A stretch of DNA of 54,775 nucleotides from Aphanizomenon flos-aquae FACHB-1287 (GTDB lineage Bacteria > Cyanobacteriota > Cyanobacteriia > Cyanobacteriales > Nostocaceae), in the NCBI RefSeq assembly GCF_014698755.1, contig NZ_JACJTO010000030.1:1-54775 (forward strand), in the 5' to 3' direction. Below, in pieces: positions 43,210 through 51,322 of the stretch. The stretch's first letter is position 1, and every line of letters begins with the position of its first letter. The position numbers were made by a program, and so were the translations under genes. The notes below the pieces were generated by a model. It saw only the letters and a list, made by a program, of their open reading frames with translations. It did not search any database and had not been told where the DNA came from.

Positions 43210-43324
43210 TTTAGGTTAGTTTTTCATAACTGTGTAAAATTTGTATGGGGTGGGCAAAATTGCCTACCCTATATTGTGTGAAGAAAATTATAACTTGAAT
43301 TATGATAGGGGTATATATAAGAAA

Positions 43325-43810
43325 ATGAGGGATGCACTAGGACGAAGAGGTGAATCGCTATTTGACGTTTTAATAACAGAATTTCATTCTGATGATGGTC
43401 CAATTTTCAAACCGCAGTTTTTAGGAGAGAAATGGCAGTATGTTGATTTTATTGTTGAGTTAGTAGGTGCTGGTTCTTATATTCCTTATTTTTTTGTACA
43501 AGTTAAAACTACTAGGCAAGGTTATACTAAAAAAGATAAACGTCTGAAGGTGAAAGTAGAAAAGGAATCTATAATTGGTATAGCATCTTATCTAGCACCA
43601 ACTTATATAGTTGGAATTGATGACATTCAAGGAACAGGTTATATAGTTTCTGCTAATGGAGAAAATTTAAAATCTCTCTCAAGCCTATCTACTGAATTTC
43701 CTATTAATAAACAAAATAGAGAAATCCTTTGGAATGAAGTCAATGATTTCTGGAAACCTTATACACAGAATAAACAAAAAAATTTAAGTTCCAAGTTCAA
43801 ATGGAGATGA
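43325..43810 (+). CDS. DUF4365-like PD-(D/E)XK protein, first of a pair
   Basis: 161 residues from ATG 43325; the frame is open to 43241, but those 28 codons contain an interspersed repeat (GGGGTGGGCAAAATTGCC) and are unlikely to be protein. GRRGESLFDVLI opens a compact alpha/beta core with YVDFIVELV (Asp) and YFFVQVKTTRQG (Q-x-K), the DUF4365/restriction-like nuclease pattern, then IGIASYLAPTYIVGIDD. The protein ends 4 bases before the next gene, which carries a related core, so the two form an operon. DUF4365 proteins occur in defence contexts; direct evidence of activity is lacking. Confidence 0.7.
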   Translation: MRDALGRRGESLFDVLITEFHSDDGPIFKPQFLGEKWQYVDFIVELVGAGSYIPYFFVQVKTTRQGYTKKDKRLKVKVEKESIIGIASYLAPTYIVGIDDIQGTGYIVSANGENLKSLSSLSTEFPINKQNREILWNEVNDFWKPYTQNKQKNLSSKFKWR

Positions 43811-43814
43811 AACA

Positions 43815-44411
43815 ATGCAAATAGAACAACCTTGGTATATTGGTTTACGTTCAAAAGCTTTAGCAATAGTATCTTTAACTGAACGTGATGATTTGATTGT
43901 TTATAGAGATACAAAAGATTATGATTTAGATGTTCTAGTTTCCATTAGCAAAAATGGTGAGGATATTAATAGGCTTTTTGGTGTGGAAATAAAAGCTGTA
44001 AAATCTACACCTAAGATAATTCAAAATGAGGATATTTTCAATATAGAAGGAGCAGATATAAATGTTCTGCAATCACGATTTACAAAGTGTAATTTTCCAA
44101 TATGTCTATTTTTCTTTACTCTGGATAATGATAATGGGTATTACAAATGGATTCTCGAACCAATTATTGATAACGAAAACGGTAACAAATTAAAACGTAA
44201 TGGAAGTCCAGAATTTAGAAAATTAACCAATGAATCAATAAATAATATTGTTGATTTAGTGAATCAATGGTACAATAATGCACGAATTGATTATAAAATA
44301 CCTGATGTAATACCAAAACCTTTACTATCAAAGCGTAAAGTGAAACGGTTTTTAAAACAAATGGAAAAAATTACAAAACAGCAGAAATCGCAAGATAATA
44401 TCAATCATTAA
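43815..44411 (+). CDS. PD-(D/E)XK-like protein, second of a pair
   Basis: 198 residues. The core is YDLDVLVSISKNGEDINRLFGVEIKAVKS: Asp in LDVLV and Glu-x-Lys in VEIKA give a complete D...ExK nuclease triad. After it come ADINVLQSRFTKCNFPICLFFFTL and a Lys-rich basic tail (LSKRKVKRFLKQMEKITKQQ) suited to nucleic acid contact. It starts 4 bases after the preceding gene. Unlike its partner it has ExK rather than QxK, so one or both may be active. No known family name from memory. Confidence 0.65.
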   Translation: MQIEQPWYIGLRSKALAIVSLTERDDLIVYRDTKDYDLDVLVSISKNGEDINRLFGVEIKAVKSTPKIIQNEDIFNIEGADINVLQSRFTKCNFPICLFFFTLDNDNGYYKWILEPIIDNENGNKLKRNGSPEFRKLTNESINNIVDLVNQWYNNARIDYKIPDVIPKPLLSKRKVKRFLKQMEKITKQQKSQDNINH

Positions 44412-44453
44412 GTACATAAAAGGTGGCTTTTACCAGTGAAGCATCATAATCAA

Positions 44454-44617
44454 TTGTCTGAATCAGGATGTCCAGGATTTAAGGATTTGCAGGATGTGAT
44501 TGAATGATTGTTTGTGAGGATGTTGGGTATTTTATTTGTCTGAATCAGGATGTCCAGGATTTGAGGATTTTCAGGATGTGATTGAATGATTGTTTGTGAG
44601 GATGTTGGGTATTTTCA
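44454..44617. repeat. Two tandem 82-bp copies of the GTCTGAATCAGGATG repeat
   Basis: TTGTCTGAATCAGGATGTCC starts at 44454 and again at 44536; the 82-base period includes GGATGTGATTGAATGATTGTTTGTGAGGATGTTGGG. The two units differ at only a few bases. Confidence 0.85.
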
Positions 44618-44669
44618 GGATGTTTTTTGATAATTTTATTTAAATGATTATAAACCATCTAAAAATTAC

Positions 44670-44711
44670 CATCCTGTACATCCTTTAATCCTGGATATCC
44701 TGATTCAGACT
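44670..44711. repeat. Inverted copy of the GTCTGAATCAGGATG repeat
   Basis: CATCCTGTACATCC...CCTGATTCAGAC is the reverse complement of the 44454 unit (about 40 bases, a few mismatches). With the forward copies it could form a long hairpin between the nuclease pair and the TIR gene, and may terminate transcription from both sides. Confidence 0.8.
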
Positions 44712-44730
44712 TAATAATTTTCTAAAAGCT

Positions 44731-45840
44731 TTAGATGTTACAGTTTACAAGTCTCGATACAAGAGAAAATATGCGAACAACGCGACTCTGAAAATCCCCT
44801 AAAAAAAATACCCTTCCATAGATACTAAAGGGTAAGTGTCCTCTTGGTATCTGATTTTTATGAACATCATACCATCCCACATCCTGAACAAACATATTCC
44901 AGGCTAAAAAATCATATTCATCGCTACTAAACTCACCACCGACACTCAAATAAATTTCCTTTTGGACGCTGAAGCCAAATCTTCCGTTACTGTAATTTAC
45001 CCACAATTGGTCAATTGTGCGAAGGTCTTGGCATGGAAAATTTAATAGTTCATCAATTGTAAAGTTAAAGTAGTTACCTGACTTTTTACCCACAGCTTTA
45101 ATCATAACTTCGTAAGTTTCTTTATCTGCTTCTTCCCAGTTCTGTGCTGCTAGTAAATCGCGTAGTTTGCTGTAGTCTATGCCTTTTTCTGAGCGTAGGT
45201 CGTCTATCTGAGTGGGTGGCTGAATATTAGTAAGTGGCTGAATAATATCTACAGCCTGACTTGCTGAAATTTTTGCAAGATGTGAGCTTAAAAGTTCTAA
45301 TGGCTTAGTAAGTGGCTGAATAATATCTACAGCCTGAGTTGCTGAAATTTTTGCAAGATGTGAGTTTAAAAGTTCTAATGGCTGTTGAGTCTGAACAACG
45401 GGTTGTGACGGTTGCGACTCTGGCTTTATTCCAGTAATACCCCAAATTAACTGCTTCATTGGGTCAGGGTCTTGTTGACGAAAATCAACCCAATGAAAGC
45501 TTCTCAAAAATCTTGGGGTTTGTGTTTTCAGTTCGCTAAGTGTGTATTTGCAACTTGGGAGGATAACTAAGCCCATTCGTAGCTTTCGTTCGACAAACTC
45601 AACCAGAAACTCCCTCATTTCAATATTAGCCCAAGGTCCCACATCAGAAGAACCAACAAATATAGCCGCAGCTTCAATTTGACCAATAATTTCCTCAAGT
45701 TGGTCTTGCCAAAGACGAAACGGCTCAAAGTCATACTTATCTAGCCAGGCATCTATTTCTCTCTGTAATAGCTCTGTTCTAATCTTTTCTACCTCTGGCT
45801 TGTCCTCGCTATTGTGGCAGAGGAAAACATTTTTTGCCAT
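44731..45840 (-). CDS. TIR domain-GUN4 domain fusion protein
   Basis: 369 residues. About 1-140 is a TIR domain: MAKNVFLCHNSEDKPEVEK (box 1), IEAAAIFVGSSDVGPWANIEMREF with Glu74 at the catalytic NADase position, and LRSFHWVDFRQQ. About 150-205 is a linker containing a tandem 26-residue duplication (LELLNSHLAKISATQAVDII, repeated). About 219-360 is a GUN4 domain: DYSKLRDLLAAQNWEEADKET, LLNFPCQDLRTIDQLWVNYS, NGRFGFSVQKEIYLSVGG, GHLPFSI. GUN4 binds porphyrins and activates Mg-chelatase in photosynthetic organisms; TIR domains often cleave NAD. It starts 1 base after the stop of the 165-aa gene, so they form an operon. Confidence 0.87.
   Translation of the reverse strand: MAKNVFLCHNSEDKPEVEKIRTELLQREIDAWLDKYDFEPFRLWQDQLEEIIGQIEAAAIFVGSSDVGPWANIEMREFLVEFVERKLRMGLVILPSCKYTLSELKTQTPRFLRSFHWVDFRQQDPDPMKQLIWGITGIKPESQPSQPVVQTQQPLELLNSHLAKISATQAVDIIQPLTKPLELLSSHLAKISASQAVDIIQPLTNIQPPTQIDDLRSEKGIDYSKLRDLLAAQNWEEADKETYEVMIKAVGKKSGNYFNFTIDELLNFPCQDLRTIDQLWVNYSNGRFGFSVQKEIYLSVGGEFSSDEYDFLAWNMFVQDVGWYDVHKNQIPRGHLPFSIYGRVFFLGDFQSRVVRIFSLVSRLVNCNI
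45227..45382. repeat. In-frame 78-bp tandem duplication in the TIR-GUN4 linker
   Basis: Two adjacent 78-base units (45227-45304 and 45305-45382) differ at only a few bases and encode two copies of a 26-residue helical segment. Confidence 0.85.
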
Positions 45841-45841
45841 T

Positions 45842-46339
45842 CTACTCCTCTACACCTGAAATAACAGCCAAAGCCTTCGCATACTCTTCCAAACCACCTC
45901 GCAACGCAGCTAACTCACTTCGCAACGTTGCTTCTTCTGTCCAACTTACCTCATGTTCTTTAGGACTCACCCCCACAGGTCGTCTTGCTTCCCAAGCCTG
46001 TAACACAGGATGCCATTTAGCCAAAAACGGTCTTAACCCATTATTCAACACCGCAATAGCAATTCCCCCGACCGAGTTCTTAGAAGCACCCACATCAGGT
46101 CCAGCGGCTTTAAGAACTTCGCGGGTAGTTCCGAATAAACTATACAATGAGTTCAATGCTTCCCGGACTAATCCCTGATCCTCTTCTAAGGACTGGACAG
46201 CAATGCGTGTTACCAATTCCACATACAAAGACCAAGCGGCTTTACGTTCCGTTGTATCGGCTTCCCATTCCGCAGAACCAATACCGAAAGGAAGACTAAT
46301 AGCGACTTTTTTTAATTTTGCGGGGTCGTGCTTGGGCAT
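45842..46339 (-). CDS. Unknown protein in operon with TIR-GUN4
   Basis: 165 residues, soluble, mostly helical. Features: VAISLPFGIGSAEWEADTTERKAAWSLYVELVTRIAVQSL, ALNSLYSLFGTTREVLKAAGPDVG, LNNGLRPFLAKWHPVLQAWEARRPVGVSPKEHEVSWTEE, then a helical tail ELAALRGGLEEYAKALAVI. No known enzymatic motif. It sits 1 base ahead of the TIR-GUN4 start, so translation is probably coupled. From memory, similar proteins occur next to TIR or caspase-like genes in other bacteria, suggesting a conserved partner of conflict-system effectors; this is unverified. Confidence 0.75.
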   Translation of the reverse strand: MPKHDPAKLKKVAISLPFGIGSAEWEADTTERKAAWSLYVELVTRIAVQSLEEDQGLVREALNSLYSLFGTTREVLKAAGPDVGASKNSVGGIAIAVLNNGLRPFLAKWHPVLQAWEARRPVGVSPKEHEVSWTEEATLRSELAALRGGLEEYAKALAVISGVEE

Positions 46340-46693
46340 AAACGACTACTGGAAATAAATATCTAAATCATAGTACCTAAAAATTAGCATATTTTAGCCG
46401 CAAAATTAACTGAAACTACTCAATAATGGTCTTTTTTAATAACACGAAATTTTACCATATATGCGCGGACAGATTTCCACTCATAACACAAGTATAGTAG
46501 AAATTTTGCGTCTTGTCAAGTCTAAAAATGTAAAATTCCTTAAAATCATATTTTGTCTGAATCAGGATTCGCTAGGCAGGGTAAAAAACAGATTTCCCCA
46601 ATAGTTTCTTTTTTCTAGCTTGCCTTTTGTTTATACTTTTTGCCAAACTTTTGCTAAAATCGTATTAGACATCCATTAAAATACCATCATCTT
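46340..46693. other. Divergent spacer between the TIR operon and the VapBC-like pair
   Basis: It must hold promoters for both directions. A truncated repeat copy (TTGTCTGAATCAGGATTCGCTAGGCAGGG) lies at about 46554-46582. No gene seen. Confidence 0.45.
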
Positions 46694-46939
46694 ATGCAAA
46701 CCAAAGAATTAATTATACAAGAACTACAGCAAATACCAGAAGTTGAACTAACCCAAATACTTAATTTTATTCGTGCTATCAAAGAAAAAACCAACGCGAA
46801 CCCAAATGAATATAAACCTATTTGGGAAGTAGCTGATGATATTATTAAAGACATTCCTGAAGAAGTCTTAGAAACACTTCCTAGTGATGGAGCAGAAAAA
46901 CATGATTACTATATTTATCAACAAAAATTCATACAATAA
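46694..46939 (+). CDS. Probable antitoxin of a VapBC-like pair
   Basis: An 81-residue acidic protein (MQTKELIIQELQQIPEVELTQILNFIRAIKEK, then PEEVLETLPSDG) of the DUF2281/VapB-like type: an N-terminal helical region followed by an acidic, toxin-binding C-terminus. It lies 13 bases before the PIN-domain gene on the same strand. In such pairs the antitoxin covers the RNase site and represses its own promoter. Confidence 0.75.
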   Translation: MQTKELIIQELQQIPEVELTQILNFIRAIKEKTNANPNEYKPIWEVADDIIKDIPEEVLETLPSDGAEKHDYYIYQQKFIQ

Positions 46940-46952
46940 TAGACAATAAATA

Positions 46953-47363
46953 ATGAAAAGAGTTTTTGCAGATACGTTTTATTGGATAGCGTTAATTAAT
47001 AAAAGTGATTCATGGTATCAGCGTGTAAAAAGCTATAGCGTTAATCTTGAAAATATTGAAATTATTACAACAGAGGAAGTTTTAACAGAAACCATAAATT
47101 TTTTTGCTTCCTTTCCCGCACCAATGAGAGCAGTTTATCAGCTAGTAGTTCAAATTATTCAAGATCATAATATTCAAGTAATACCTCAAACCCATGAATC
47201 ATTTATAGCTGGTTTAGAGTTATTTCAACAAAGATTTGATAAAGAATATAGTTTAACAGACTGTATTTCTATGATAACAATGAAAAATCTCAATATCATA
47301 GATATTTTAACCCATGATAAACATTTTACACAAGAGGGATTTCTCATCTTGTTTAAAGATTAA
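46953..47363 (+). CDS. PIN-domain ribonuclease toxin (VapC-like)
   Basis: 136 residues with the PIN acidic tetrad: Asp7 (RVFADTFYWIAL), Glu42 or Glu46 (EEVLTETINFF), Asp103 (EYSLTDCISM) and Asp122 (ILTHDKHF). These match a metal-dependent single-strand RNase. It directly follows its antitoxin gene. The lethal phenotype and target RNA are unknown. Confidence 0.85.
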   Translation: MKRVFADTFYWIALINKSDSWYQRVKSYSVNLENIEIITTEEVLTETINFFASFPAPMRAVYQLVVQIIQDHNIQVIPQTHESFIAGLELFQQRFDKEYSLTDCISMITMKNLNIIDILTHDKHFTQEGFLILFKD

Positions 47364-47450
47364 AAGTCAACTTATGTATGGGTTTATGAAAAGCGATGAG
47401 GACACAGAGAAAAAATATCAGTTATTAAAATGATGTACTTATCTTGTAAT

Positions 47451-47600
47451 TTGTCAGAATCAGGATGTCCAGGATTTGAGGATTTACAGGATGTTTTTTA
47501 ACAATATCTTGTTTTGATTTTTGATTATTCATCTTTATCTGTGTTTATCCGCGTTTATCTGCGTACCCTTCGGGAAGCAAGCTACAATTATTCTTGGTAT
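47451..47600. repeat. Compound repeat flanking the MNT/HEPN pair, left copy
   Basis: TTGTCAGAATCAGGATGTCCAGG...CAGGATG, then a TGTTTTGATTTTTGATTATTC stretch, then TTTATCTGTG/TTTATCCGCG/TTTATCTGCG units, and a 20-base insertion at 47565-47584 (ACCCTTCGGGAAGCAAGCTA) before AATTATTCTTG. The same compound arrangement without that insertion recurs at 48451-48615. Confidence 0.8.
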
Positions 47601-47654
47601 TACTGTTACATTAGCATTATTTATTTAACTATTGATTTATTTGAATTAGCGAGA

Positions 47655-48023
47655 TTATAGATAGTCTACTAATTCTAGAAACTCTTCGGATCTTTCAATC
47701 AGTAGTTTTGCATCTTCAGCAGTTAAACGTTCAGAACGATCATAATCTCCCTTTAAACGTATCTGTTCTGCATCAATTAGATAACGGTGAAATTTGGGAT
47801 CAATTTTACTAGTTCTGGCAAAAAGTTCGCCAAATTTACTAATTACAGCAGAGTGTTTGCTAAAACTGAGATTTTCACCTACTAGGAATGCTTCAGCTAT
47901 ATAAAACATGGCATAATAAGCACGAGAAGCAGCAAAATCAGGTAGATTTTCACCAGCTAAAATTTTAGCCGCACGCAGGCTATCTTGAGCTTTTTGCACT
48001 AGAAACTCTTGTTCTTTGTTCAT
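47655..48023 (-). CDS. HEPN-domain protein (toxin of MNT/HEPN pair)
   Basis: 122 residues, helical, of the UPF0332/COG1895-type HEPN family: EFLVQKAQDSLRAAKILAGENLPDFAASRAYYAMFYIAEAFLVGENLSFSKHSAVISKFGELFARTSKIDPKFHRYLIDAEQIRLKGDYD. The R/H residues in FARTSKIDPKFHRYL could be the RNase motif, but the canonical Rx4-6H is not clear. Its start overlaps the MNT gene by 44 bases. In known MntA-HepT systems the nucleotidyltransferase AMPylates the HEPN toxin to silence it. Confidence 0.85.
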   Translation of the reverse strand: MNKEQEFLVQKAQDSLRAAKILAGENLPDFAASRAYYAMFYIAEAFLVGENLSFSKHSAVISKFGELFARTSKIDPKFHRYLIDAEQIRLKGDYDRSERLTAEDAKLLIERSEEFLELVDYL

Positions 48024-48345
48024 AAAAATAAATACCTTCTTTTTTGATATTTTGGATTAGCATTGTTTGTTCTTTTTCAAAACGACTGAGGGAGTAAAAC
48101 AGGTTAGAAATTACTACACTATATTTTAAACAAAGGGGACTAAGAAAAAAGCCAATTTTTTCAATTTCTTTGGTTGCTTGCACTAAATCCTTCAGTATAA
48201 CTAATACATCAAAATCTGAATCAGGAGTAGCATCACCACGCGCTTGAGAACCAAAAAGAATCACTGCAATTAGTTGATCTTGGTATGTTTCAAGCAAGTT
48301 ATTACACAATTCATGCATAATTTCTTCTAGTTTTGGGTGTTTCAT
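47980..48345 (-). CDS. MNT-type nucleotidyltransferase (antitoxin)
   Basis: 121 residues of the minimal nucleotidyltransferase family. The catalytic motif is FGSQARGDATPDSDFDVLV: GS-x-ARG (32-37) with Asp44 and Asp46 as metal ligands. The C-terminal half is diverged. It precedes and overlaps the HEPN gene, the order of MNT/HEPN toxin-antitoxin modules. Confidence 0.88.
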   Translation of the reverse strand: MKHPKLEEIMHELCNNLLETYQDQLIAVILFGSQARGDATPDSDFDVLVILKDLVQATKEIEKIGFFLSPLCLKYSVVISNLFYSLSRFEKEQTMLIQNIKKEGIYFYEQRTRVSSAKSSR

Positions 48346-48382
48346 CGTTTAGTAATATTTTCTACTTGGAGATATAGCATTT

Positions 48383-48603
48383 TTTGTCAGAATCAGGATT
48401 TTAGGATTTACGGGATGTTGATTTTATTTGTGCTGTACTAATATTTTAATTTGTCTGATAGCGAAGCGTGGCGTTAGCCATATCAGGATGTCCAGGATTT
48501 TAGGATTTACAGGATGTTATTTGAAAGTATCATGTTTTGATTTTTGATTGTCTATCTTTATCTGTGTTTATCTGCGTTTATCTGCGTTTATCTGCGTTCA
48601 ATT
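48383..48603. repeat. Compound repeats with a nested insertion, right of the MNT gene
   Basis: A short GTCAGAATCAGG unit (48383-48418) is followed at 48451 by TTGTCTGA, a 23-base insertion (TAGCGAAGCGTGGCGTTAGCCAT, 48459-48481) and then TCAGGATGTCCAGG; further on come the TGTTTTGATTTTTGATT stretch and three or more TTTATCTGCG units. The interruption falls inside an otherwise conserved repeat. Confidence 0.8.
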
Positions 48604-48610
48604 ATTCTTG

Positions 48611-48720
48611 ATACAGCATATTTCATTGCTATGAGGTACAAATCATAATCATAAAACTCTTGTGGGGTGGGCATCTTGCCCGCCAATAGTGTACCTTATT
48701 ACACCGTAAATTGCTGTATT
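48611..48720. repeat. 110-bp palindromic MITE-like element, copy 1
   Basis: Outer inverted ends ATACAGCA...ATTT (48611-48623) and AAATTGCTGTAT (about 48709-48720); inner ends TGAGGTAC (48632-48639) and GTACCTTA (48691-48698); the centre is GGGCATCTTGCCCGCC. A second copy lies at 54457-54569 and a partial one near 26703. No coding capacity. Confidence 0.7.
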
Positions 48721-48878
48721 TTTTAAACAATATCATTATGGTGAGAAAAGTTGAGTATGAATGACCGCACAGAGTTCTATAACAAGCATCAGGAAGTTAG
48801 ATTTTTGTCAAGGGGTGGGGAAAATATTTTTTAGATAATAATTCATTCGGAAAATACAAAATCTCCAAATTTTTACAT

Positions 48879-51176
48879 TTATTTAGAAAACCGTTTGAAA
48901 AGCTCTGGATATTCTTCAACTGTAATGTATTCAATATTTGCACCACTACGTTGATAAAATTTTTCATCGTATGATGTGGGGTTTTCTCCAGCTTTTAAAC
49001 AAAAGATCAGTACACTTTTATCGTAATAATCAATTATTTTAATCTCTCTACCTATAGTATCTTTAACTGTTTGAGAAATAGGTTCTGATTTAATTTGTTG
49101 AATTATCCAGCGATAAAAATTATCAATATTTCCCTGTAATCTCTTTGCTTCGTGTTCTATTCCTGTTATTTTAAAATTTTTATACTTCATTGGTTCAATA
49201 TTATATAATTTTTTTATTCTTTTTGCTGTATCATCATTATCTGCTACTCCAACACAAACATAACCAGTTGCACCAGGTGAATGATTTGCCATAGCAGTTA
49301 AAGTTAGAATTATTTTACTAAAACTTTCTTGATCAAATTGTCCTCTTCCATCTAGTTTTGTAAAACCTTGTTTAAAATCATATAAAGTTTGTTCTGTGTT
49401 TGATTGAGTTAGTAGAGTTTCAAACTCTGTTAACCATGAATCTTTAGCAGGATCGTTATTATTTCTTATTTTAAAGAACTCTCTAATAATTCCTTTAACC
49501 TTGTTAATGTTACGTCTTTTATTTTGATAACTCCATGTTTGTCCACTAGTAATATCTATATCTTTATTAATATTTTTTAAAGATTTTATTAATCCATCAT
49601 AATTAGCTATTTCCATTTTCTCCCTAAAGACCAAATCGTAAAAACTGAAAAATATTACTTGAAAAGGACGAGGCATATATTTCAAATTGTTTAAAGTAAT
49701 TAATTCACTAAAATTTCTTTTTGATTCTTGTAATATCTCACGAATATGATTATATATAATCATAAATTCTTTTTTAATAGATTCAGGTTGCTTCGACACT
49801 AATGCAGTTTCTATTTTTTCCTGATTTTTACCATTTTTAAAGCCATAATATTCATCTGAGATAGATGCGCTACTTCCAGGTGTCTCAGGTAACAACATAT
49901 ATGCAATAATATCAGAAACAATTTGTTCATCTCTTGACTCTCTCAGCATTTCTTTTGTTAAAATTTTGTTTTTTACCCAAAAAATATCATCAACTTTAAT
50001 ACCATATTCCAGTTCTTTATTAGTAATACTAATTTTTTTCATCTCATTAAGAAGAACAATATCTGAAGCTGATGCGTCTGATCTTATTTCGCTTGAAATT
50101 ATTCTTACTAAATTAGCAAATTTAGAAGTTGCACCTGCTGAACGTAATTCTTGTTTTGATAAATGTTTACCATTCGCAACTGCTAACATTACCCGTGTTG
50201 TTTCTTCATCTGCTTCTTCCCATTTCTCTGCTTTGAGTAAATCACGCAGGTTATTGTATTCCATTCCTACGGATGATTTTAATTGTATTTCTTGCTCTTT
50301 TTCAATATTAACTAAACCCAAATTTTCCCGAAACTTCAATACTGTCTGAGTCCGGTTTTCCGGTTCTAATTCCATACCCTGCAAAATAGCATCATTCACC
50401 CTCTGACTAAGACTTTGATTATAAAATTTTGGTTTTGCTAAAAGGTCAAATTGTTGACGTTCGTATGCGGGTGCTGGAGTAGATTTTGAGTCTTGTTTCA
50501 GTCCATCAGCAGTGAGAAGATAATATAAGGTTGCAGCTAAAGAGTAAACATCGGTATGATCTCCAAAATTGCCTTTATCCCGATATTGTTCAATAGGTGC
50601 ATAACCATCTGTGAATGATTTAGTCATGCTTGTGTTAGCCATACTGCGAGTTGAACCAAAATCAATTAAAACCGCTTCTTGTTGATTTTGTTCATTTTGG
50701 CGTAAGAGAATATTTTCGGGTTTAATGTCGCGGTGTAAACTTCCTTTGGCGTGAATATATTCTAAAGCCTGACTAATTTGATTTATATATAGTAGTGCTT
50801 CACTTTCGGAAAGTTGTCCTTTATTCTGGACATACTTAAATAAAGTTACCCCATCAATATATTCCATCACCACGCCAACCAATCTAAATTTCTCTTCCTC
50901 AATTACTTCTACTTCTTCGATAACTTCATGGACTTTGACAATGTGTTTATGATCAAAACTTGCTATTTTTAAAGCTTCGTTAATAAACTTAACTTGTTGG
51001 GCTGCAAAGTCGTCTCGCAATTGCATTTCCTGATTGAGCGTTTTAACGGCGTATAATTTACCCGTCTTGGGTTCTAAAGCTTTGTAGGTAATACCAAAAC
51101 CACCGATACCCAAGGGTTTGCCTTGAATGATATATTTACCTTTGTTGATTGGTTGCCCTGGTCGCCAAATTATCAT
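48879..51176 (-). CDS. Ser/Thr kinase fused to GUN4-like and AlbA_2/Schlafen-like domains
   Basis: 765 residues. Kinase about 14-300: Gly loop GIGGFGIT (23-30), VAIK-type Lys45, LHRDIKPENIL (Asp149), IDFGSTRSM (about 171), YAPIEQY and DVYSLAATLYYLL. About 305-345 is a partial GUN4-like segment (EYNNLRDLLKAEKWEEADEETTRVM) close to the one in the TIR-GUN4 protein. About 350-580 is unassigned. About 595-765 resembles an AlbA_2/Schlafen-like domain: LYDFKQGF, LTLTAMANHSPGATGYVCVGVADND, SYDEKFYQRSGANIEYITVEEY. Such domains bind nucleic acid or cleave RNA/tRNA in some defence proteins. It is a stand-alone gene. Confidence 0.85.
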   Translation of the reverse strand: MIIWRPGQPINKGKYIIQGKPLGIGGFGITYKALEPKTGKLYAVKTLNQEMQLRDDFAAQQVKFINEALKIASFDHKHIVKVHEVIEEVEVIEEEKFRLVGVVMEYIDGVTLFKYVQNKGQLSESEALLYINQISQALEYIHAKGSLHRDIKPENILLRQNEQNQQEAVLIDFGSTRSMANTSMTKSFTDGYAPIEQYRDKGNFGDHTDVYSLAATLYYLLTADGLKQDSKSTPAPAYERQQFDLLAKPKFYNQSLSQRVNDAILQGMELEPENRTQTVLKFRENLGLVNIEKEQEIQLKSSVGMEYNNLRDLLKAEKWEEADEETTRVMLAVANGKHLSKQELRSAGATSKFANLVRIISSEIRSDASASDIVLLNEMKKISITNKELEYGIKVDDIFWVKNKILTKEMLRESRDEQIVSDIIAYMLLPETPGSSASISDEYYGFKNGKNQEKIETALVSKQPESIKKEFMIIYNHIREILQESKRNFSELITLNNLKYMPRPFQVIFFSFYDLVFREKMEIANYDGLIKSLKNINKDIDITSGQTWSYQNKRRNINKVKGIIREFFKIRNNNDPAKDSWLTEFETLLTQSNTEQTLYDFKQGFTKLDGRGQFDQESFSKIILTLTAMANHSPGATGYVCVGVADNDDTAKRIKKLYNIEPMKYKNFKITGIEHEAKRLQGNIDNFYRWIIQQIKSEPISQTVKDTIGREIKIIDYYDKSVLIFCLKAGENPTSYDEKFYQRSGANIEYITVEEYPELFKRFSK

Positions 51177-51322
51177 CGGTTCAGAAATATATAAAGATAA
51201 TTATTTTTATAGTGACTCATTTTACCATCTAACCACCCCAAAAAACCCACCCCACACCTCAGACAGATGAAAAGGTATAGACTCAGCATCTAAAATATCG
51301 AAGCCCGATTGATACTAAAAGT

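Follow-up and report, generated by a model that had tools for sequence, protein, structure and literature searches.

A short gene beside a TIR–GUN4 fusion gene in the cyanobacterium Aphanizomenon flos-aquae FACHB-1287 encodes a member of an undescribed, widespread and conserved family of TIR partners, here called P0002, which is the novel element of the locus and very probably a dedicated TIR partner. We read the gene pair, tentatively and at somewhat below even chances, as one form of a TIR module of two genes, widespread among bacteria, in which the GUN4 domain would act as the trigger, the TIR domain would act on NAD+ and P0002 would read the product; such a module is probably antiviral. 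Here we report the layout of the pair, the association of P0002 with TIR genes across genomes, the exchange of TIR domains beside P0002 and the alternative explanations for these observations.

The window, a stretch of 54,775 nucleotides, corresponds to contig C24 in a genome of 4.35 Mb. On its minus strand the P0002 gene comes first and the TIR–GUN4 gene (P0001) follows, with a single base between the P0002 stop codon (TAG) and the ATG of P0001. Both open reading frames and their Pfam matches agree with the first-pass annotation, which had described a TIR–GUN4 fusion after a 165-aa gene: TIR_2 covers residues 5–132 (E = 1.1e-15) and GUN4 (PF05419) residues 217–327 (E = 1.1e-33) of P0001. The duplicated linker that it had reported is a direct repeat with copies at 45227–45304 and 45305–45382 that are 97% identical, and the two genes form the unit that it had proposed, the partner gene ending one base ahead of the TIR–GUN4 start. 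P0002 ends in the codons GAG GAG, which are suitably placed to act as a possible ribosome-binding site for P0001, and the junction suggests that translation of the two genes is coupled.

Table 1. Coordinates of the gene pair, its parts and its surroundings in the window
Feature	Coordinates	Strand	Basis
P0001, TIR–GUN4 protein, 369 aa	44731..45840	-	ORF and Pfam
P0002, 165 aa, undescribed TIR-companion family	45842..46339	-	ORF, homologues and predicted structure
TIR_2 domain	45445..45828	-	Family match and TIR fold in predicted model
Putative catalytic Glu74 codon	45619..45621	-	Alignment of 136 TIR rows
Linker joining TIR to GUN4, a 78-nt (26-aa) direct repeat in two copies	45227..45382	-	
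GUN4 domain, lacking two features known from tetrapyrrole contact	44857..45192	-	
P0002/P0001 junction: GAG GAG, TAG, one base, ATG	45838..45850	-	Direct reading
Variable region containing the module, between the DUF4365 gene pair and the P-type ATPase gene	44412..51322	.	

The host genome carries three P0002 copies and, counting the TIR_2 family only, three TIR_2 domains genome-wide; every P0002 copy lies directly upstream of one TIR gene, giving three adjacent pairs out of three, and the pairing is thus not due to chance. The genus of the window holds 11 P0002 copies in six of its nine members (the P0002-like DNA of G388 and G390 stands outside this count), all near a TIR gene, ten of them immediately and one at 345 bp. 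The C-terminal part of these 11 TIR proteins is GUN4 in five (L011, L012, L013, L014 and L041), FGS in three (L042, L043 and L044), WD40 in one (L047) and unrecognised or absent in two (L045 and L052). A caspase domain was present in two of ten proteins scanned, and STAND-FGS and WD40 are other modules found among the TIR partners.

Across 388 genomes drawn from the class, P0002 relatives occur in 45, some as fragments only (for example in G129, G155, G176, G180, G191 and G333). TIR_2 is present in 44 of these 45 genomes as against 178 of the 343 without P0002 (Fisher p = 7e-11, a test that ignores phylogeny and genome size), and the sole exception, G191, has no more than a short, stop-containing piece of P0002. 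In the other direction, 178 of the 222 TIR_2-positive genomes lack P0002, the same-genus G336 and G357 among them, and TIR–GUN4 genes stand without P0002 at G196:C14 and G375:C3:1032931. Because most TIR-bearing genomes lack P0002, TIRs do not generally depend on it: P0002 goes with TIR, and TIR does not need P0002.

The association extends well beyond the class. Twelve plasmid records with P0002 relatives come from Calothrix (itself a cyanobacterium), Streptomyces, Photobacterium, Ruegeria, Mesorhizobium, Vibrio, Aureispira, Sinorhizobium and Rhizobium; ten of them entered the counts (H3 and H4 were left out), with a TIR gene within 1.5 kb in eight, farther away in one and none found in Ruegeria. 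Among 84,980 species genomes scanned, 307 relatives were confirmed. The best 80, ranked by similarity to a Photobacterium relative and hence not a random sample, represent many phyla to judge by the titles of their records. At 42 of these 80 genome-contig loci a same-strand TIR ORF is no more than 150 bp away, and at a further 15 a TIR is within 1.5 kb, a total of 57, with no TIR in the examined stretch of the remaining 23. A TIR lies within 150 bp at 20 of 50 cyanobacterial loci, within 1.5 kb at 11 and farther away at one; none was found at 18, many of the flanks reaching only 1.5 kb. All three viral-contig loci have an adjacent TIR. Searches started from the window TIR and from a ThsB-like TIR returned 135 and 132 ORFs, respectively, 132 of them in common. 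At many loci the P0002 and TIR genes overlap or meet with one base between them, and 22 of 127 loci have at least two TIR ORFs no more than 3 kb away from a single P0002 relative. The first-pass annotation had proposed looking for a conserved association between the 165-aa gene and TIR genes, the absence of which would have counted against it; the association exists and, because it spans phyla, that objection falls away.

Clustering in defence islands, by which P0002 and TIR genes would be neighbours with no functional coupling, is highly improbable. The locus does lie in a variable region, and some relatives are carried by plasmids or viral contigs. In the 80 genome contigs, however, there are 6.2 TIRs per 10 kb up to 500 bp from P0002, as against 0.09–0.30 at 2–6 kb, so that TIRs are roughly 20–70 times denser close to P0002 than more than 2 kb away. 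Moreover, when 327 ORFs of at least 100 aa within 3 kb were clustered for 78 plasmid and genome-contig loci (cyanobacterial loci left out), TIR was the only family that recurred beyond synteny: no non-TIR neighbour family appeared in three or more loci except by synteny, in Nitrosomonas and Poribacteria. Together with the one-base junctions and the three-of-three pairing in the host genome, these data already disfavour clustering alone.

Two groups of loci merit separate mention. In one cyanobacterial genus (g111; L027, L028, L030, L032, L034 and L050), P0002 relatives have no neighbouring TIR and are followed by the same kind of gene, with TIR_2 domains elsewhere in the genomes. In Nitrosomonas, the P0002 relative occupies one common chromosomal setting at L109, L124, L128 and L132; a TIR gene adjoins it in L128 and L132 and is missing in L109 and L124, which makes these loci a possible natural presence/absence series of the TIR gene.

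Searches of Pfam, PADLOC and PHROGs gave no match to P0002 itself at E up to 1, and an NCBIfam search gave one chance-level match and none that was significant. The first-pass annotation knew of no characterised TIR–GUN4 system. The fusion is in print, as discussed below; for P0002, a literature search, which is weak evidence of absence, returned no description, and the family seems to be absent from the literature. AlphaFold2, given an alignment with 61 relatives from the 80 genome contigs, predicts four helices and a β hairpin for P0002 (pTM 0.80, mean pLDDT 83.6). Ten residues, E41, T44, R45, S64, R73, N99, R103, P104, W109 and H110, are kept in 97–100% of 127 aligned members (the P0002 and TIR alignments contain some repeated rows from duplicate loci of one record, for example L054/L084), a pattern that would suit a binding or active site better than a mere adaptor. 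In the 165-aa form neither an effector domain nor a transmembrane segment is recognisable, the window P0002 falling below the threshold for a transmembrane helix in a hydropathy scan. By a simple rule, a hydrophobic segment precedes the P0002 domain in 12 of 129 ORFs, at least four of which (L014, L041, L080 and L145) rest on an upstream start that is perhaps false. In four proteins (L066, L069, L070 and L127; the match of L069 is below the Pfam cut-off), a P0002-like domain forms the N terminus of a patatin-like protein; the first three lie near TIR genes, and L127 is directly followed by a second P0002 gene.

The four long helices, together with the near-invariant E41-x3-R45 and R103-x6-H110, which formally resemble the HEPN motifs Ex3[KR] and Rx4-6H (PMC3710099), raise the question of whether P0002 could be a HEPN-like RNase effector that the TIR switches on. 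We consider this very unlikely. An invariant proline takes the place of the typical N, D or H after the arginine, and the motif lies in the middle of a helix instead of at the end of helix 3. Pfam HEPN matches none of 62 P0002 members, and hhalign against the HEPN protein of the window (Pfam HEPN E = 1.9e-16) gave a probability of 0.1%. Fold searches with the predicted structure found no specific relative and returned only generic bundles.

The TIR domain of P0001 keeps the glutamate that the first-pass annotation had noted in WANIE. The motif begins at residue 70, which places the glutamate exactly at position 74, and in the alignment (a few rows of which are duplicates) this position is E in 132 of 136 rows and a gap in the other four. 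The predicted TIR structure is close to the NADase TIRs of SPARTA TIR-APAZ, SARM1 and AbTir, and about equally close to the non-enzymatic MyD88 and IL-1RAcPb. The fold was not counted for activity; our view that the domain is probably an NAD-cutting enzyme draws on the glutamate and on the genomic association. The window TIR matches TIR_2, with no ThsB_TIR match at E up to 1. A KH[VI]DWE motif is found in 28 of 64 TIRs adjacent to P0002, and each of the five such TIRs scanned (L056, L075, L082, L117 and L138) matches ThsB_TIR.

Between P0002 and the C-terminal module, both of them better kept, the TIR domain is swapped as a cassette. In 45 comparisons among ten P0002–TIR loci of the genus and family, mean identity is 89% for P0002 and 41% for the TIR domain, with a P0002 dN/dS of 0.05–0.17. 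Between the window and one locus of G178, P0002 is 98% identical, the C-terminal part 67% and the TIR 24%. A second site, in which L043 is compared with L044 from another species, shows the boundaries at the DNA level: P0002 is 95–100% identical in each 100-bp block, identity drops to 40–63% across 600 bp holding the TIR domain and linker, and it rises to 81–97% in the FGS domain, the downstream DNA being similar as well. From the contrast over the ten loci we infer that P0002 tolerates very different TIR lineages, a tolerance that a shared small molecule would explain more easily than a shared protein surface. Exchange of the TIR between two better-kept partners at one site amounts to a natural experiment on which parts must match.

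On these grounds we propose the following course of events. The C-terminal module, GUN4 here and FGS or WD40 in sister loci, would sense infection or stress and act as the trigger; the triggered TIR domain would act on NAD+; and P0002 would read what the TIR makes by way of a set of conserved polar residues, Glu41, Thr44, Arg45, Arg73, Asn99, Arg103 and His110, and would itself act as, or switch on, a downstream effector, as ThsA does in Thoeris. We hold the receptor/effector step for P0002 to be plausible at a little under an even chance. It draws on the independence of P0002 from TIR lineage, on the several TIRs that accompany one P0002 at some loci (22/127), on the abundance of ThsB-type TIRs (the motif in 28/64, five scanned matching ThsB_TIR) and on the patatin fusions; the N-terminal hydrophobic segments (12/129) and the near-invariant residues of the 127 members also fit. 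Against it stand the loci without a TIR (23 of the 80 genome-contig and 18 of the 50 cyanobacterial loci; six belong to one cyanobacterial genus), the many TIR-bearing genomes and the TIR–GUN4 genes that lack P0002, and the lack of a recognisable effector domain or transmembrane segment in the 165-aa form. A spacing of one base would suit a tight protein complex as well, with P0002 as inhibitor or activator, and TIR exchange is also compatible with a TIR that is the terminal effector.

These last two points lead to the main rival, in which P0002 is a regulatory subunit that sits on TIR–GUN4 and either holds the TIR off or assembles it, and the TIR, as the terminal step, depletes NAD+. The one-base or overlapping junctions at many loci would suit such a subunit, and a terminal effector would easily tolerate exchange of its TIR. 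A constant component with variable effectors is, in addition, the pattern of conflict systems such as EACC1–caspase as described in PMC7159879, and several TIR partners of P0002 carry other modules (caspase, STAND-FGS, WD40). The family nevertheless pairs with two very different TIR types, TIR_2 and ThsB-like, and TIRs only 24% identical stand beside P0002 proteins that are 98% identical, which is harder to reconcile with one contact surface; the patatin fusions point to a downstream position, and P0002 copies without a neighbouring TIR exist. We regard the regulatory-subunit reading as rather unlikely, although the data do not decide between it and the receptor.

Thoeris, in which the TIR protein ThsB makes a signal and ThsA is the effector, is one of the systems nearest to this one. 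Both systems place one or more TIR genes next to one constant second gene, with several TIRs per partner at some P0002 loci, ThsB-type TIRs in many relatives and the TIR glutamate kept. They differ in that P0002 is a predicted helical bundle of 165 aa with no SIR2, SLOG or Macro match, and in that the window TIR is of the TIR_2 type and fused to GUN4, not ThsB_TIR. No ThsA match was found by PADLOC in five window proteins (for the kinase, among the best 25 matches listed), and no third conserved gene that could be ThsA appeared in the 78 relative loci, PADLOC covering nine relative proteins. More doubtfully than the receptor step itself, P0002 may stand for an undescribed class of receptor or effector for TIR-made nucleotide signals: Thoeris-like and free of ThsA, found in many phyla, built on one small helical protein with exchangeable TIRs, with a patatin domain or membrane anchor in some members and with GUN4, FGS or WD40 as the cyanobacterial trigger.

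The EACC1–caspase systems of Kaur et al. (2020; PMC7159879) share with this locus a small constant first gene and a second gene with variable modules. P0002 differs in having no Pfam match at E up to 1, in its hydropathy, which stays below the threshold for a transmembrane helix, and in its partner, which is TIR(–GUN4) and not the caspase described there. A PADLOC profile for the PD-T4-6 kinase (PDLC04062) matches the GUN4 half of P0001; in contrast to that kinase, the match covers only the C-terminal part of the profile (260–448 of 450), Pfam finds no kinase in P0001 and the kinase half is missing.

The same paper describes GUN4 fused in one polypeptide to kinases, caspases, trypsin and TIR and, citing Davison 2005, proposes tetrapyrrole sensing for GUN4 fusions, so that neither the TIR–GUN4 architecture nor the sensing idea is new (PMC7159879). 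The first-pass annotation had likewise suggested that GUN4 may sense tetrapyrroles or redox state. The domain is clear, and it matches solved tetrapyrrole-binding GUN4 structures (1z3x, E = 2e-17) and retains the fold core DQLW, GRFGFSVQ and GHLP, although the GUN4 half of the predicted P0001 model has low confidence. Like the GUN4 cofactor of Mg-chelatase, it thus has a conserved core; unlike that cofactor, it is fused to a TIR and has lost two features reported for ligand contact: Phe196 (Synechocystis numbering) of the Phe196/Arg214 pair reported for tetrapyrrole (porphyrin) binding (PMC8967248), and the LxNxLR motif reported for bilin binding (PMC10156173). In an alignment with the housekeeping GUN4 of this genome (L001), inspected by eye, the window protein lacks the stretch bearing Phe196, and reads GHLPFSIYGR where L001 reads GHLPLSNQLR, keeping only the final arginine of the motif, aligned without a gap. 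The full LxNxLR occurs in L001 only and in no other aligned GUN4 fusion that reaches the region. The loss of the two features weakens the tetrapyrrole-sensing claim for this domain. P0001 could still bind a tetrapyrrole, since F191A in plant GUN4 only about halves affinity (PMC8967248) and the arginine aligns. That GUN4 senses tetrapyrroles or photosynthetic state and thereby gates a TIR NADase is, on balance, unlikely. The FGS or WD40 modules of same-genus proteins would suit such gating by a trigger domain; more generally, because they occupy the GUN4 position in sister loci, GUN4 looks like a trigger or recognition domain.

The module lies in a region that varies within the genus and fits a defence hotspot. 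In G388 and G394 the DUF4365 pair adjoins the P-type ATPase gene, with no ORF of at least 80 aa between them; a kinase–GUN4 protein stands between the two in G357 and follows the DUF4365 pair in G205 (where the ATPase gene falls outside the stretch), and a different small gene adjoins the pair in G178. At 44412–51322, a segment that G388 and G394 lack, the window carries the TIR module, a pair of small genes, a nucleotidyltransferase–HEPN pair (47655–48345) and a kinase. The small pair, at 46694–47363 and without a Pfam match, is presumably an antitoxin with a PIN toxin. In the kinase (48879–51176, minus strand) the GUN4 domain stops after its first third and gives way to a Schlafen AlbA_2 domain; the G357 kinase (L201) has the same first 60 residues and a GUN4 domain at its end, and by this comparison the C-terminal part of GUN4 seems to have been replaced by another module. 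A dispersed repeat around TGTCTGAATCAGGAT lies on both sides of the module (44455–44711, 46554–46568, 47452 and 48385), with six matches against 0.01 expected and many similar copies in same-genus genomes. At 43241–44411 (plus strand), two adjacent DUF4365-like genes, one with a weak match below the Pfam cut-off, are kept beside the hotspot in several same-genus genomes. A protein with GUN4 and a serine/threonine kinase is listed in a table among the genes of the phage-resistant cyanobacterial substrain RE2 (PMC10811720).

TIR domains are common to animal, plant and bacterial immunity. To our knowledge, readers of bacterial TIR products are known for only a few partner families, and P0002 is a short, strongly conserved candidate for a further partner. 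Because its relatives occur in named isolates, for instance of Photobacterium, Vibrio, Nitrosomonas, Clostridium and Streptomyces, the question of what P0002 does beside its TIR is directly testable.
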